Source: Chrysoporthe austroafricana (lineage: Eukaryota > Ascomycota > Sordariomycetes > Diaporthales > Cryphonectriaceae). Taken from it: a DNA stretch of 64,000 nucleotides. Where the stretch lies: positions 1,054,001 through 1,118,000 of the forward strand of contig JYIP02000005.1 of the NCBI GenBank assembly GCA_001051155.2. Reading direction: 5' to 3'. The notes under the pieces are model-generated. The model did not search any database and was not told the DNA's origin. It saw nothing but the letters and a program-made list of their open reading frames with translations. This document shows, piece by piece, positions 15,161 through 21,520 of this stretch. The position numbers and the translations under genes were made by a program. Positions within the stretch are counted from its first letter, which is position 1; each line of letters opens with the position of its first letter.

Positions 15161-16835
15161 CTACAGCTTCAAGCTACCCGCGTCCGGCTCGTCCTCCCCG
15201 AAGAGCCTGAGGAAGGCGATGTGGACCTCGTCCGTGAGGTCGCTCGCCTGCAGGCTGCGGCCCTTCTTCTCGAAGGCCTGACGGGAGCATTCCTGTTGTG
15301 ATCGTGCAGGTCAGCTTCACGTTCTCAAGGCCCATAGTCCCCAGCAGCTCCGACATGCAACGTGCGGTGGTAAGGGCTCTCCTGAGAACTCTTACGTTCC
15401 TGTGACGTTCGTCGAGGGCGACCGCGGAGGAACAGCACCTCTCTCGTCTTCATGAGCAAGGGTGGAAAAGGAGGCGAAGGGAAAAAAGAAAGGAAAAAAG
15501 AAAAAAAAGAAAAAGACGAAAAAAGGGAGGAAGGGAAGAAAGAAGAAACGAAAGAAAGAAGAAGGGAAAGAAGGAAAGAAAGAAGGAGGGAAAGAAAGAA
15601 AGAGGGAAGGAAAGAAGAAAAGAAAGAAGGAAGAAAAGAAGGAAAGAAGGAAGGAAGAAAAGGAGGAAAGGAGGAAAGAAGGAAAGAAGGAAAGGAAGAA
15701 AGAAAAAAACGTACCCTCGTAAGAGCACAACCCCCAAAGGCCGCGAGCCGCACCAGCTCCCCCTCGTCCAGCCTCCCCCCGTGGTCCCATAGCCCATCCA
15801 GATACGCCTTCCGCCAGCCCAGGAACGTCGCGATCGAGCCCGTCAGCGTGTCCCCCTGCCCGCCGCTCCTCTTCTTCCCGCCCTCGACGTCGACGACCAG
15901 CGTCGTCTCCCCGTCGCTGATGAGGTCGCGGAAGCCCTTCTGCACGACCGTCACGCCGCCCAGGGCGCGCGCGAGCGCCTCGACCCTGGCCGTCTCTTTC
16001 CCACCCGGACCCCCAGGCTGCTCCTCCTCGACGCCCAGCGCCCTGCACAGCCGCGCGAACTCGACCACGTTCGGCGTCAGCACCGCCAGCCGGTACCCCC
16101 TCACGACCTCGGGCCGCGCCTGCACGACCAGCAGCGCGTCGGCGTCCAGCACCACGGGCGTCCCGCGCTCCCGCGCCGCGCCGACGACCCGCGCCACGGT
16201 GTCCTGCATCAGCGGGTCGCGGCCCAGCCCGGGCCCCGCGACGAGCACGTGCAGCCGGGACAGCATGTCGATGATGGGCGACGCGACGGCGTCCGCGGGG
16301 GCGGTGGAGGTGGACGCGTCCGAGGTCCCCCGGGAGGGTGACTGCCGCATGAGGGGGTGGACCATCAGGTTCGGGGAGTAGGTCTTGATCACGGAGGCCG
16401 CGCCGGGGGTACAGATGACGTGGGACTGGAGGAGAGGGCATCGTCAACTCGCTTGTCCTTCCAATTGAGCAGGCAGGTAGATAGGTCGTATACACAGACG
16501 TGGAGGCACAGGAGCAGCTCGGGAAGATAGGGAAGGAGGGAGGGGGGCCGCGCACCATATCGCACCCCAATCTTGCGCTCGCCATGGCCGAGAAATACGG
16601 CGCGCCTGTGTAGTCCTCGCTGCCACCAATCACTGCTATGCGCCCCTGCTGGCCTGTATCACGCCCAACGTATCATCAGCACGCTGTCCATCGAGTCGCA
16701 GGAACCTGGCCGGAGGAGGAGCCCCTCCGGGTCGCGGGCGGACGGACCTTTGTGGAACTTGTCCAGCATGGGCGGCACCAGCTGCCGCGCGCGGCCCAGG
16801 AGCTCTCTGGTGGCGGGAGACATGTCCGATGCCAT
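15161..16835 (-). CDS. ATP-dependent (S)-NAD(P)H-hydrate dehydratase
   Basis: Four exons, 16835..16748, 16653..16556, 16425..15715 and 15292..15161, give 342 residues. The enzyme repairs hydrated NADH/NADPH (NAD(P)HX) using ATP; it belongs to the ribokinase-like YjeF C-terminal/CARKD family. Splicing reconstructs the family's N-terminal run [20 protein letters not shown], then SARLGCDM joined to SHVICTP, then [12 protein letters not shown]. Also visible are GPGLGRD, LDADAL, the aspartate motif [10 protein letters not shown] near residue 250, and FGGCALTR joined across the last intron to [19 protein letters not shown]. Intron 3 is 422 nt, largely a pyrimidine tract on the coding strand. The chosen start gives [13 protein letters not shown], as in cytosolic homologues. 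An in-frame ATG at 17084 would add 83 residues and could encode a mitochondrial form, as known for this family. Confidence 0.9.
15460..15709. repeat. Near-pure polypurine tract (about 250 bp) inside an intron
   Basis: The plus strand is almost exclusively A and G for about 250 bases, built from irregular gaaag/aagga units. Read on the coding (minus) strand it is a polypyrimidine tract and occupies most of intron 3 of the NAD(P)HX dehydratase gene, starting just after the GTACGT donor. Such tracts can form triplex (H-DNA) structures; here that is only a possibility. Confidence 0.9.
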
Positions 16836-17457: not shown

Positions 17458-20400
17458 TTAGGAGGTGAAGCTCTTGGTGAAGCTGGTGATGACATCCTTC
17501 AGCTTCGCCTCGAGCTCCTTGCTGAGGGCACCCTCCTTGTCGATGGTGGCCATCAGCTCGGACTCGTTGGTCTTCAGGTGGGCCAGGAAGTCAGCCTCCC
17601 ACTGGAGGATCCTGGCGACAGGGACGGAGTCGAGGTGACCGTTGACACCGGCGAAGATGAGGGGCACCATCTCGTTGACGGCCATGGGAGAGTACTGCTT
17701 CTGCTTCAGGAGCTCGGTCAACTGCAGAGAATCGTGTGGTCAGCCATAGGTCCGCAGGGGCGGGGGACATGGAACGAGACGTGGCATCTCGGGGCTCGCA
17801 GATACTTACACGCTCACCACGGTTCAGGGTCTGCTTGGTGGCGGCATCCAGGTCAGAACCGAACTGGGCGAAGGCGGCGACCTCACGGTACTGGGCCAAG
17901 AAGAGCTTCAGGGATCCAGCGACCTGCTTCATGGCCTTGAGCTGGGCAGCGGAGCCGACACGAGACACGGACAGACCGACGTTGATGGCAGGCCGGACAC
18001 CCTTGTAGAACAGCTCAGACTCCAGGAAGATCTGGCCGTCGGTGATGGAAATGACGTTGGTGGGAATGTAGGCGGACACATCACCACCCTGGGTCTCGAT
18101 GACGGGCAGCGCGGTCATGGAGCCACCGCCGTGCTTGTCGCTCATCTTGGCGGCACGCTCGAGCAGGCGCGAGTGGAGGTAGAAAACGTCACCGGGGTAG
18201 GCCTCACGTCCGGGGGGACGACGCAGCAGCAGAGACATCTGACGGTAGGCCACGGCCTGCTTGGACAGATCGTCGTAGATGACCAGCGAGTGCTTTCCTG
18301 AATCGCGAAAAAATTCGCCCACAGTCGCGCCTTGTAAAAGTGAAGTGTTAGCATGGTAAGCAAGTGGTTGTGAGCATATTGTAAGCGTAGATGAGGTGAT
18401 AGCTTGAGGTGGTAGCTCGATGATGAACCCGCCACTGGCAGATCCGGGTGCTACTCGGTTGCAGTCGCAGCGGCTTCAGCGGCGACTTTGGCCTTGTGCT
18501 TCTTGGATGCATTGTGCTTGTCGAGGTGTGCTTTGAGGCCGAAATCCTTGACACAGGTGACACATGAGAAAGTCTTGTTCTTCCTCCTGGTCTCAAGCAA
18601 CTTTCTCATCCGACGAGCATTGGCTGAGAGCGGCTTCAAGACACCACCGGCGGCGAGTCTGACTTGCTCCTTGTGAGCATTGGTGGTAAGATGCTTGCGT
18701 AGAGCATGAGCAGATTGCAATGACAACTTGCATGTCTGACAGACATGTTTTCTTGATGCTTTGGCGCGAGCTCGAACACCGGCGGCGATCTCGAGGACCT
18801 TGTCCTTGTTCCGGTGTGACCAGTCCAACTTTTCACGGCGCTTTCTCGCAAGATACGCCTGTAAATCATTGGAGCGCTCTCTGTCTTCTGCGAGCTTGCT
18901 GGCGATGGCCGCCCTCTCCTTGGCACGTCGCACGCGTGCTTCATTGTAGCTTCCAACTGTTCCTCGGTCATGTCTGTGTCACGAGCTCGCTCGATGAGGG
19001 GTGTATGAGTGCCCAATGGATCCCATTCCACTTGATCTCGCTTCCATGGCATGGACGACGTCCAAAGGGTGTCCATCACGGTCTCGACGGCAGCATGGAA
19101 GATGAAGGTGAAAAAGGCCTCAAGGGCGAGGAAGCGGGTGCGAGTCTTGGGGACATGACGAGGAGCAGGTATGGGACACCAGCAGGGAAGTCCATGATGA
19201 CTGATGGTGAATCCGTTGTCGACAGCATGCTTCACCAAGCGAGGCAGATGATGTTGCTTGTCATAGTCGCTGAGCCTGGACATGACACCGGACTGGAAGT
19301 TTGTACCGGAACCAATGTAGAGTCTGGCTCGGTGACCCGACTTTTCCATGAGGACAGCATAGATAGCCCAGACTTTCTCGTCATGAGGCGGCCCCGGTAA
19401 TGATTGAAAAAACCCAATGTTCGGAGGTGTCGGTGACTGCAGAACATCAAGTAGGTTTGGGGGAAAGCTGAGCGGCGACCGGGAGCAGATCATGTCGTTC
19501 GCCTCTTCTTCACCGAGCACGATTCTAAAAATCGGGCAGACATACCAGTCTGAAGCATCCACGGTGACAGTGGACCAGACATAGGCATCGACAAGTTCTC
19601 GGGTTGTCTCAAGGGGAGTTGTCTCAAGGGGAGTTGTCTCAAGGGGAGTCGTCATCTTCAAGACGTAAGGGAATCGACACAATGAAAATGAGGGGATGAT
19701 GATCTTGGTATCCGGACACGCTCACCGAGGAGCAGGAATTGACACAATGAAAATGACAATGAGGGGATGATGTTCTTGGGATCTGGACACGCTCGCTAAG
19801 GAGCAAGAAGAGAAAGATTGAAAATGAAGAGAAAATTGTGATGGGGGGACAAGAAAATGGGGTTCATGACGGGAGTGTGTCGTTCCTTCCCAGAGTTGTC
19901 ATGACATGAAGAAGGTGCAACTCACCAGTGAAAGGAGCGAGGTATTGCAGAGGAGCGGCCTCGGAGGCGGTGGCGGCGACGACGATGGAGTACTTCATGG
20001 CGTCGTTCTCCTCGAGAGTCTTGACGAGCTGGGCGACGGTGGACCGCTTCTGGCCGACGGCGACGTAGACGCAGTACAACTTCTTGGTCTCGTCGGTGGT
20101 GTTGTTCCACCGCTTCTGGTTGAGCATCGCGTCCAGGGCGACGGCGGTCTTTCCAGTCTGACGGTCACCGATGATCAGCTCACGCTGGCCACGGCCGATG
20201 GGGACCATGGCATCGATAGACTTGAGACCGGTCTGCACGGGCTGGTTGACGGAGCGGCGAGGCAGGATGCCGGGGGCCTTGAGCTGGGCACGGCGCTTCT
20301 CCTTGGCGTTGAGAGGGCCCTTGCCGTCGATAGGGTTGCCGAGGGCGTCGACGACACGGCCGAGCAGCTCGAGGCCGACGGGGACATCGACCTGGCGGTT

Positions 20401-21520
20401 GTTTGTCAGCAGCTCGAAACAGGCAGGCGCGAAGAGACAGGCGCGCAGAGGCAGGCGCGATCGGGACCACTCACAATCTCTCCGGTACGCTTGACGGTCT
20501 CGCCTTCCTTGACGAGACGGTCAGAACCGAAAAGCACGACACCGACCTGGCCAGCCTCAAGGTTCATGCACATGCCCTTGACACCAGAGGCAAACCTGGA
20601 CACCTGTCAGTCTCACCGATCTCGGCGGCGCGGATGGACTCTGGGGGAAGGGAAGACCTACTCGACCAGCTCCTCGGCCTGGACGTTGGCCATGCCGTGC
20701 ACACGGGCGATACCATCACTGTAGGGCCAGCTGTCAGCCACACGATTCCTTTCCACCACCCTGACTGACCGGCCGGCGCTCCCGCGGTGCTCGCGTCTCC
20801 AGGTGCTGCCAACCGGCAGATCTTGATGAAGGGGGGCGATGATCCCGCGCTCTTTATGCAGACGTACCCGACAGACAGGACGCGGCCAGTCTCGGCGAGG
20901 TTGGACTCCTCCTGGACGCCACGGATGCGCTGCTCGAGGATGGAGGAGACCTCGGTGGGGGTGGCCTTGTCGGCATAGGTGCGAGCTTGTATCGAGGCGA
21001 CGGCAGGGGCGGCAGAGCGGACCTGTACCGGGGGGAAAGAGAAGGTGCGTCAGCTCGGTGCAACAGTTTTAACAGAACTTGGTGCGGTGCAGTGCGGCAG
21101 GGCGTGGTGTGCTGGCTGTGCGTGCGTGCTGGCCGCGTGCCCGTCCTCGCCCGTGCCACGCCGACGGCCCCGGTCGGGTCGAAACAGCTCCAGCTCGGCC
21201 GCCCGGAAAACCTCGCACGCCCCCGGTTGGGGAGCTCAGGCAGGCCCTCGCGCCGCGCTGACGGACCCGCGGGGGGGCCAATTGAGCGTGGCAGGTGCTT
21301 CCGGGCATTATCGAGGCCGGCTGGAGGTGGTCCTAGACGGGATTGAGGCCGGGTCGGCGCGGCGGAAAAGGGTTGTGGGCGGGTGTGGGTGTGGGTGTGG
21401 GTGTGGGTGTGGGTGGTGATGTCGTCAAGCCCTCGCAGCAAAACTTACGGCGGCAGCTCTGCTCGACGCAGAGAGGGCGCCGACGGCGCGGGTGCTCTGG
21501 CGGAGGGCGGTTCGGAACAT
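17458..21520 (-). CDS. atp1: Mitochondrial F1 ATP synthase subunit alpha
   Basis: Seven exons (21520..21449, 21022..20868, 20718..20662, 20595..20475, 20391..19926, 18330..17810, 17721..17458) give 551 residues, the usual fungal length. It is the nucleotide-binding, non-catalytic subunit of the F1 hexamer in the mitochondrial matrix. Visible features: a Ser/Arg/Ala-rich mitochondrial presequence (about residues 1-40), [10 protein letters not shown], the Walker A motif GDRQTGKT near residue 208, [36 protein letters not shown] and [20 protein letters not shown]. All junctions have GT donors (GTAAGT, GTACGT, GTAGGT, GTGAGT twice, GTAAGT) and clear AG acceptors, with phases that join correctly. 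Introns 2-4 and 6 are 66-149 nt. Intron 1 is 426 nt with a GT-rich repeat. Intron 5 is 1,595 nt, splits the Gly291 codon after its first base and carries a GIY-YIG nuclease frame. Despite that insert, no coding damage to atp1 is seen. Confidence 0.97.
18451..19655 (-). pseudogene. GIY-YIG nuclease with two C2H2-like zinc fingers, frameshifted
   Basis: The frame opens at ATG 19655 (another in-frame ATG lies at 19682) with three TPLET repeats. The nuclease part (about 19372-19080) has the GIY-YIG signature in the form WAIYAV ... LYIGSGT, the conserved Arg in SRLSDYD and the metal-binding Glu in FLALEAFF, with [11 protein letters not shown] between. After [10 protein letters not shown] the frame shifts by one base near 18947. 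The continuation, open to the stop at 18451, starts [18 protein letters not shown], is basic and helical, then has two finger modules: [18 protein letters not shown] with a following His, and [18 protein letters not shown] with a following His. The span is 1,205 nt, one short of a multiple of three, consistent with a single-base loss. Without correction, translation reads 104 or so off-frame residues to a stop at 18636. Fingers next to a GIY-YIG core suggest site-specific DNA binding, as in homing nucleases. Whether this is decay, sequencing error or recoding is unknown. Confidence 0.75.
19603..19650 (-). repeat. 15-bp tandem triplication encoding TPLET repeats
   Basis: Three copies of gttgtctcaagggga lie head to tail at the 5' end of the intron-encoded frame. 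Because the unit is a multiple of three, it adds the pentapeptide TPLET per copy without breaking the frame. Confidence 0.9.
19676..19807. repeat. Imperfect direct repeat of about 65 bp, two copies
   Basis: Copy 1 (19676-19740) and copy 2 (19741-19807) both begin gacacaatgaaaatga, share ggggatgatg and ggacacgctc and end near gaggagca. Copy 2 has a 6-base insertion near its start. They lie between the atp1 donor site and the nuclease start codon, so they may belong to the leader or promoter of the intron gene. Confidence 0.85.
21381..21416. repeat. (GGGTGT)n repeat in atp1 intron 1
   Basis: About six copies of the hexamer gggtgt lie inside the 426-nt first intron of atp1, near its donor. The unit resembles G-rich telomere-like DNA in composition but is not the fungal TTAGGG repeat. 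Confidence 0.85.

Follow-up and report, generated by a model that had tools for sequence, protein, structure and literature searches.

Homing introns that are removed by the spliceosome, termed shintrons, were reported in 2025 from mirusviruses (PMC12768974). According to that report, no nuclease had been seen in a spliceosomal intron before, eukaryotic genomes apparently offer no equivalent, and such introns originated in a mirusvirus. The gain of spliceosomal introns is a long-open question. Here we describe intron 5 of the nuclear atp1 gene (ATP synthase subunit alpha) of the fungus Chrysoporthe austroafricana, which lies in a 64,000-nucleotide (nt) stretch of contig JYIP02000005.1 (positions 1,054,001 to 1,118,000; the window) and carries a gene for a GIY-YIG-type nuclease. 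We think it probable that this intron is, or once was, a spliceosomal homing intron in the nuclear gene of a cell: a homing-type nuclease gene lies inside the intron, and both the target gene and the insertion site recur in other fungi.

The host gene is otherwise ordinary (coordinates in Table 1). Its seven exons joined into 551 sense codons free of stops, and the exon 3' of intron 5 matched Pfam ATP-synt_ab. The genome (48.15 Mb, 22 contigs) holds no second alpha-subunit gene, the next matches to the post-intron exon being 37% and 28% identical. Intron 5 splits a part of atp1 that is highly conserved, in phase 1 after codon 290 (APFT/G), and has spliceosomal donor, branch and acceptor signals (GTGAGT, GCTAAC and AAG). 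The original prediction of a 1,595-nt, phase 1 intron with such signals was exact in its coordinates; we correct it in that the acceptor is AAG, an uncommon one, whereas CAG closes every one of the remaining five atp1 introns, which are 66 to 426 nt long. If atp1 is functional, intron 5 must be spliced. A group I or group II intron or ribozyme core was ruled out, since no such family matched in Rfam (4227 families, positions 17800-20500, E <= 10); the matches in that interval at this threshold were two snoRNA families, both sub-threshold.

Within intron 5 the nuclease gene is split over two frames. The GIY-YIG part is read from the ATG at 19655 (frame A), and from about 18950 the gene continues in another frame (frame B) to a stop at 18451. 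A predicted model of the GIY-YIG domain, with a predicted local distance difference test (pLDDT) score of 92.6 and a predicted template modelling (pTM) score of 0.87, had I-TevI as its closest structural match, at a Foldseek E-value of only 0.35. The known roles of the I-TevI residues underlie the catalytic comparison; E75 of I-TevI is named in the title of PDB entry 1mk0. In an alignment of 46 rows, the catalytic Tyr, Tyr, Arg, Tyr/His and Glu were each kept in 43 to 46 of them. No Pfam family matched frame A at E <= 10, and thus PF01541 did not; nor was PF01541 among the matches listed (25 of 33 families) for six scanned family members. The only PF01541 match in the C. austroafricana genome (G000:C19:4308919-4309125) is unrelated to the intron 5 nuclease. 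Because Pfam is blind to this domain and the Foldseek E-value is weak, the GIY-YIG assignment rests on the aligned fold and on residue conservation. The resemblance of frame A is not due to chance. The original prediction had reported a GIY-YIG frame on the strand of atp1 and had named a spurious resemblance as what would undo it; the model, the I-TevI match, the near-invariant catalytic positions and the relatives described below bear the claim out, with the addition of the second frame.

Frame B contains C2H2 zinc fingers (PF12171, E 6.7e-5) and, compared by eye, resembles the C-terminal half of the related protein P0006. In P0001, P0006 and other relatives the GIY-YIG domain and the fingers stand in one frame. 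The present copy is possibly inactive now because the frameshift parts the nuclease from its fingers; going by its sequence, it looks past its active phase, with one frameshift between the two. The intron leader gave no sign of structured RNA (folding z 0.22, unremarkable). A scan of intron 5 for bacterial-type promoters gave consensus matches alone and was not used.

Three successive searches recovered 65 related proteins: 5 in the first, 52 more in the second and 8 more in the third. The nine with an organism name all come from fungi (Verticillium albo-atrum, three Colletotrichum species, Elasticomyces, Aureobasidium, Hortaea, Zarea and a Chaetothyriales species), and the five of these hosts checked by taxonomy are Ascomycota. 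The 65 proteins would form a family of uncharacterised nucleases whose GIY-YIG nature escapes Pfam. A search of PDB sequences with the family profile returned two chance antibody rows only. IMG/VR contigs, one-per-species prokaryote genomes and phage records yielded no relatives (two of these scans used only a few peptide patterns). A viral fold library had no hit at E <= 0.001; its weak top rows included proteins named GIY-YIG. A viral or prokaryotic source of the nuclease was rejected for lack of relatives in the viral, prokaryote and phage sets. The N-terminal extensions of P0017, P0024, P0029, P0042, P0056, P0060 and P0058 held no convincing host-gene domain by Pfam. In P0058 (Colletotrichum chrysophilum), one gene model contains two copies of the nuclease, both degenerate. 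P0036 (Elasticomyces elasticus) is labelled carbamoyl-phosphate synthase cpa2, yet its sequence belongs entirely to the nuclease family; that it is nested in cpa2 is a guess.

Penelope-like elements also carry GIY-YIG nucleases, and the intron might accordingly be read as the remnant of a transposon, either of that kind or an introner-type DNA element, in which the domain is incidental. We consider this highly improbable. The 1,595 nt contain only the two nuclease frames and short ones, with no long reverse-transcriptase frame, and the stretch searched has no terminal inverted repeats. The DNA of intron 5 is unique in the genome (one match, itself), and no second copy of the protein is encoded there, bar a weak match of the finger region. 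An introner was rejected for want of near-identical further copies in the genome.

The strongest new evidence comes from the site of insertion. In three annotated relatives, P0002 (V. albo-atrum, 486 aa), P0062 (Chaetothyriales sp. CBS 134920, 673 aa) and P0065 (Colletotrichum tanaceti, 498 aa, named ATP synthase subunit alpha), the protein starts as ATP1 and turns into the nuclease straight after APFT or APFTG, the same ATP1 residue as at the intron in the window. These hosts are two Glomerellales (Sordariomycetes) and one Eurotiomycete. The occurrence of the nuclease at this atp1 position in other fungi, which the original prediction had proposed to look for, was thus found in proteins; the shared site is read from the DNA of the window and from these three annotated proteins. 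As read in this way, the recurrence of one atp1 position across four fungi from two or more classes fits site-specific homing.

The annotation of all three proteins as fusions raises the question of whether an alternative ATP1-nuclease fusion protein is made by alternative splicing. The three models differ in their joins into the nuclease (DVLQ, DEKVW and GDYATMTST), as artefacts of gene prediction would if each gene predictor had drawn an unrecognised intron in its own way. Half of ATP1 would be missing from a fusion of this kind, and in the window frame 1 read on from the donor reaches a stop after eight codons; we give a real fusion protein very little credence. Still less credible is an artefact of assembly or gene modelling. 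The frameshift, and the truncation of ATP1 in the three database models, could be taken that way, but the same junction occurs in independent assemblies of three other species, the window sits 1 Mb inside a 5.06-Mb contig, and the splice signals and reading frame fit.

The exon sequence on either side of intron 5 also contains codons that are rare for atp1. When 540 twelve-codon windows of atp1 were ranked by codon preference, each of the bottom 12 overlapped the insertion site. In 200,000 random synonymous recodings, no value was as low as that of codons 292-302; for codons 281-290, 121 of 200,000 were. Flanks of the remaining five atp1 introns were ordinary (z -2.0 to 1.4, versus -6.61 after intron 5). 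The flanks may possibly be exon sequence carried in with the intron, a target rewritten to resist cutting, or a product of chance.

A control on 22 other conserved-gene pieces tempers this result and is one of several points that weigh against homing: 15 of 7,892 windows, in 3 of the 22 pieces, were equally low. The control omitted six pieces of under 150 codons and 12 of 40 loci: both atp1 loci, those that were short or held stops, and locus L025, the last without good reason. Of the three low windows, that in L014 includes four intron codons, that in L015 is plain exon and that in L017 looks like a variable acidic stretch. Recoded flanks as a proof of homing were therefore downgraded; because the control found others, a rare-codon patch is not unique, and its weight lies in the exact coincidence with the insertion. 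L014 (about 1440-1560) belongs to an HSP70-family gene of the same genome (C12) and has an intron of about 70 nt before GARTTPSVVAFA, with the rare codons on the downstream side, as at intron 5 of atp1; this could be the footprint of a similar element minus its gene, or chance. L015 is likewise from an HSP70-family gene (C16), and its patch, at match codons 217-228 (VNEFKRKHKKDLSS), falls in a conserved exon that is intronless there.

Further points concern mobility. In a tree of 63 sequences the four atp1-borne copies fell within one group of 16, alongside copies of unseen location; the node uniting all 16 had a support of 39 and the node without C. tanaceti a support of 99. A tree of 19 sequences placed the C. 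tanaceti copy elsewhere with low support. The approximately unbiased (AU) test left host-like constraints unrejected (p 0.30 and 0.15), so that mobility across species is unproven, and it rejected the four atp1-borne copies as a clade apart from all others (p 0.002). A claim of horizontal transfer from the trees was dropped, given that the two trees disagree on C. tanaceti and the test keeps host-like constraints. A comparison of the nuclease and host trees, which the original prediction had put forward as a check, gave no significant conflict; its homing interpretation is partly supported, by the relatives at the same position in three other fungi of two classes. No intron-free close relative was encountered. 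For 61 of the 65 relatives the genomic context was unseen or hinted at by name alone (P0036, 'cpa2'), and the search that gave the last eight was seeded with an atp1-fused protein, which biases it towards atp1-borne relatives. The frameshifted copy, to judge from its sequence, may yield no full enzyme. Splicing, expression, cleavage and homing are all steps that we infer.

These points lend some substance to an alternative that we nevertheless regard as unlikely, in which a GIY-YIG gene entered an old and ordinary atp1 intron position a single time, in a common ancestor, and has been passed on vertically since then in an immobile intron, perhaps as a homing gene that stands on its own or as one with a function for the host. 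The shared site could be such an old intron position, which it suits equally well, since shared ancestry also gives one position in two fungal classes. The host-like topology, which the AU test did not reject, is compatible with vertical descent, as is a divergence in which the nucleases are 41-55% identical between hosts whose ATP1 proteins are 86-92% identical (90.5% between Verticillium and Colletotrichum), and P0032, P0039 and P0051 resemble ordinary stand-alone gene models. Against it, the catalytic residues are kept over 46 divergent sequences, where a neutral passenger would lose them; the copy here is single, with a single frameshift; and the exon flanks carry rare codons. In addition, the best atp1-borne match of the Verticillium nuclease is the Eurotiomycete copy (Chaetothyriales, 55.4% identity) and not that of its fellow Glomerellales (Colletotrichum, 48.4%), a closeness that, on sequence identity, is suggestive and by the AU test not significant.

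If intron 5 is indeed a homing intron, the nuclease, with its GIY-YIG domain and DNA-binding C2H2 fingers, would recognise intron-free atp1 and cut it across APFT/G. Repair from an intron-bearing copy would then install the intron, together with some adjoining exon sequence, and the spliceosome would take the intron out of the pre-mRNA, leaving the host gene functional. With its nuclease and a single fixed target site in an essential nuclear gene, such a spliceosomal intron would provide a mechanism of intron gain and spread at the DNA level that is testable in culturable fungi. More tentatively, and with somewhat more doubt than belief, we suggest that fungal nuclei might hold an active class of spliceosomal homing introns, with GIY-YIG/C2H2 nucleases and fixed sites in housekeeping genes (atp1, perhaps cpa2, and others), that cross classes, produce DNA-level intron gain and have rare-codon flanks that maybe shield the converted allele.

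Table 1. Features of the atp1 locus (window positions)
Feature	Position	Strand	Details	Basis
atp1 (ATP synthase subunit alpha), nuclear	17458..21520	-	7 exons, 6 introns	Exon join, Pfam
atp1 exons	21520-21449, 21022-20868, 20718-20662, 20595-20475, 20391-19926, 18330-17810, 17721-17458	-		
Exon codons 281-290 and first base of codon 291	19926..19956	-	10 codons directly before intron 5, mildly rare	
Intron 5	18331..19925	-	1,595 nt, phase 1, carries nuclease gene	Sequence
5' splice site	19920..19925	-	GTGAGT (G^GTGAGT)	Sequence
Tandem copies	19681..19822	-	Two of 71 nt, 82% alike; leader between donor and nuclease ATG	
Nuclease frame A	18636..19655	-	ATG at 19655	In register with relatives to ~18950, out of register below
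Tandem repeat	19603..19653	-	15 nt, 3.4 copies, start of frame A	
GIY-YIG domain	18990..19376	-	Model residues 94-222: Y99, Y113, G115, R127, Y131, E179, H217	Model, alignment
Frame B	18451..18950	-	Linker and C2H2 zinc fingers; same gene, past frameshift near 18950	PF12171; P0006
Branch-site-like motif	18347..18352	-	GCTAAC, 16 nt from intron 5 end	Sequence
3' splice site	18331..18333	-	AAG (ACAAG; non-CAG)	Sequence; set by ATP1 reading frame
Exon codons 292-303	18293..18328	-	12 codons directly after intron 5, rare for atp1 (z -6.61)	

Elsewhere in the window, a NAD(P)H-hydrate dehydratase gene adjoins a long purine-rich tract (15481..15709; GAAA-like, 57 copies of 4 nt), and a DNA polymerase phi gene (Pfam PF04931; 54980..58190) consists of two overlapping frames, probably owing to an intron or a frameshift.

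We found no other report of nucleases in spliceosomal introns in open-licence PubMed Central, a coverage that leaves subscription papers and preprint servers outside, and the term shintron was absent from the other relevant papers there. The original prediction had called the carriage of such a gene by a spliceosomal intron unusual. This holds for cells, and the kind as such had already been described from mirusviruses (PMC12768974). We file the atp1 intron as a cellular, fungal, atp1-specific shintron with a finger-bearing GIY-YIG nuclease, a known kind in a new form.

Other homing elements share single traits with it. I-TevI-type GIY-YIG homing endonucleases of group I introns have the same catalytic fold and catalytic residue pattern; the atp1 nuclease differs in its spliceosomal carrier, its use of C2H2 fingers for DNA binding and its lack of a Pfam GIY-YIG match. 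UMAG_11064 of Ustilago maydis is likewise a nuclear GIY-YIG homing gene of a fungus, and it is degenerating, but PMC7593156 presents it as the product of one recent transfer from the mitochondrion, which truncates a helicase gene, and it is neither intron-borne nor at a recurrent site. The group I introns of nuclear rDNA, with their His-Cys nucleases (e.g. PMC9548176), also place homing genes in fungal nuclear DNA; they self-splice and spliceosomal introns interrupt the nuclease gene, whereas here a spliceosomal intron carries the nuclease. PRP8 inteins (PMC1508164) are homing elements of fungi that occupy a conserved site in a nuclear housekeeping gene and are removed by protein splicing and not by the spliceosome. 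Mirusvirus shintrons come closest. In both cases a nuclease gene (GIY-YIG among theirs) lies in an intron with spliceosomal sites and no group I or II signature, particular conserved genes are preferred, and homing is proposed. Theirs are viral and sit in virion genes (PMC12768974), while ours is in a fungal nucleus, targets atp1 and adds C2H2 fingers. If our interpretation of intron 5 is correct, it bears on the claim made there that shintrons apparently have no counterparts in eukaryotic genomes and originated in a mirusvirus.
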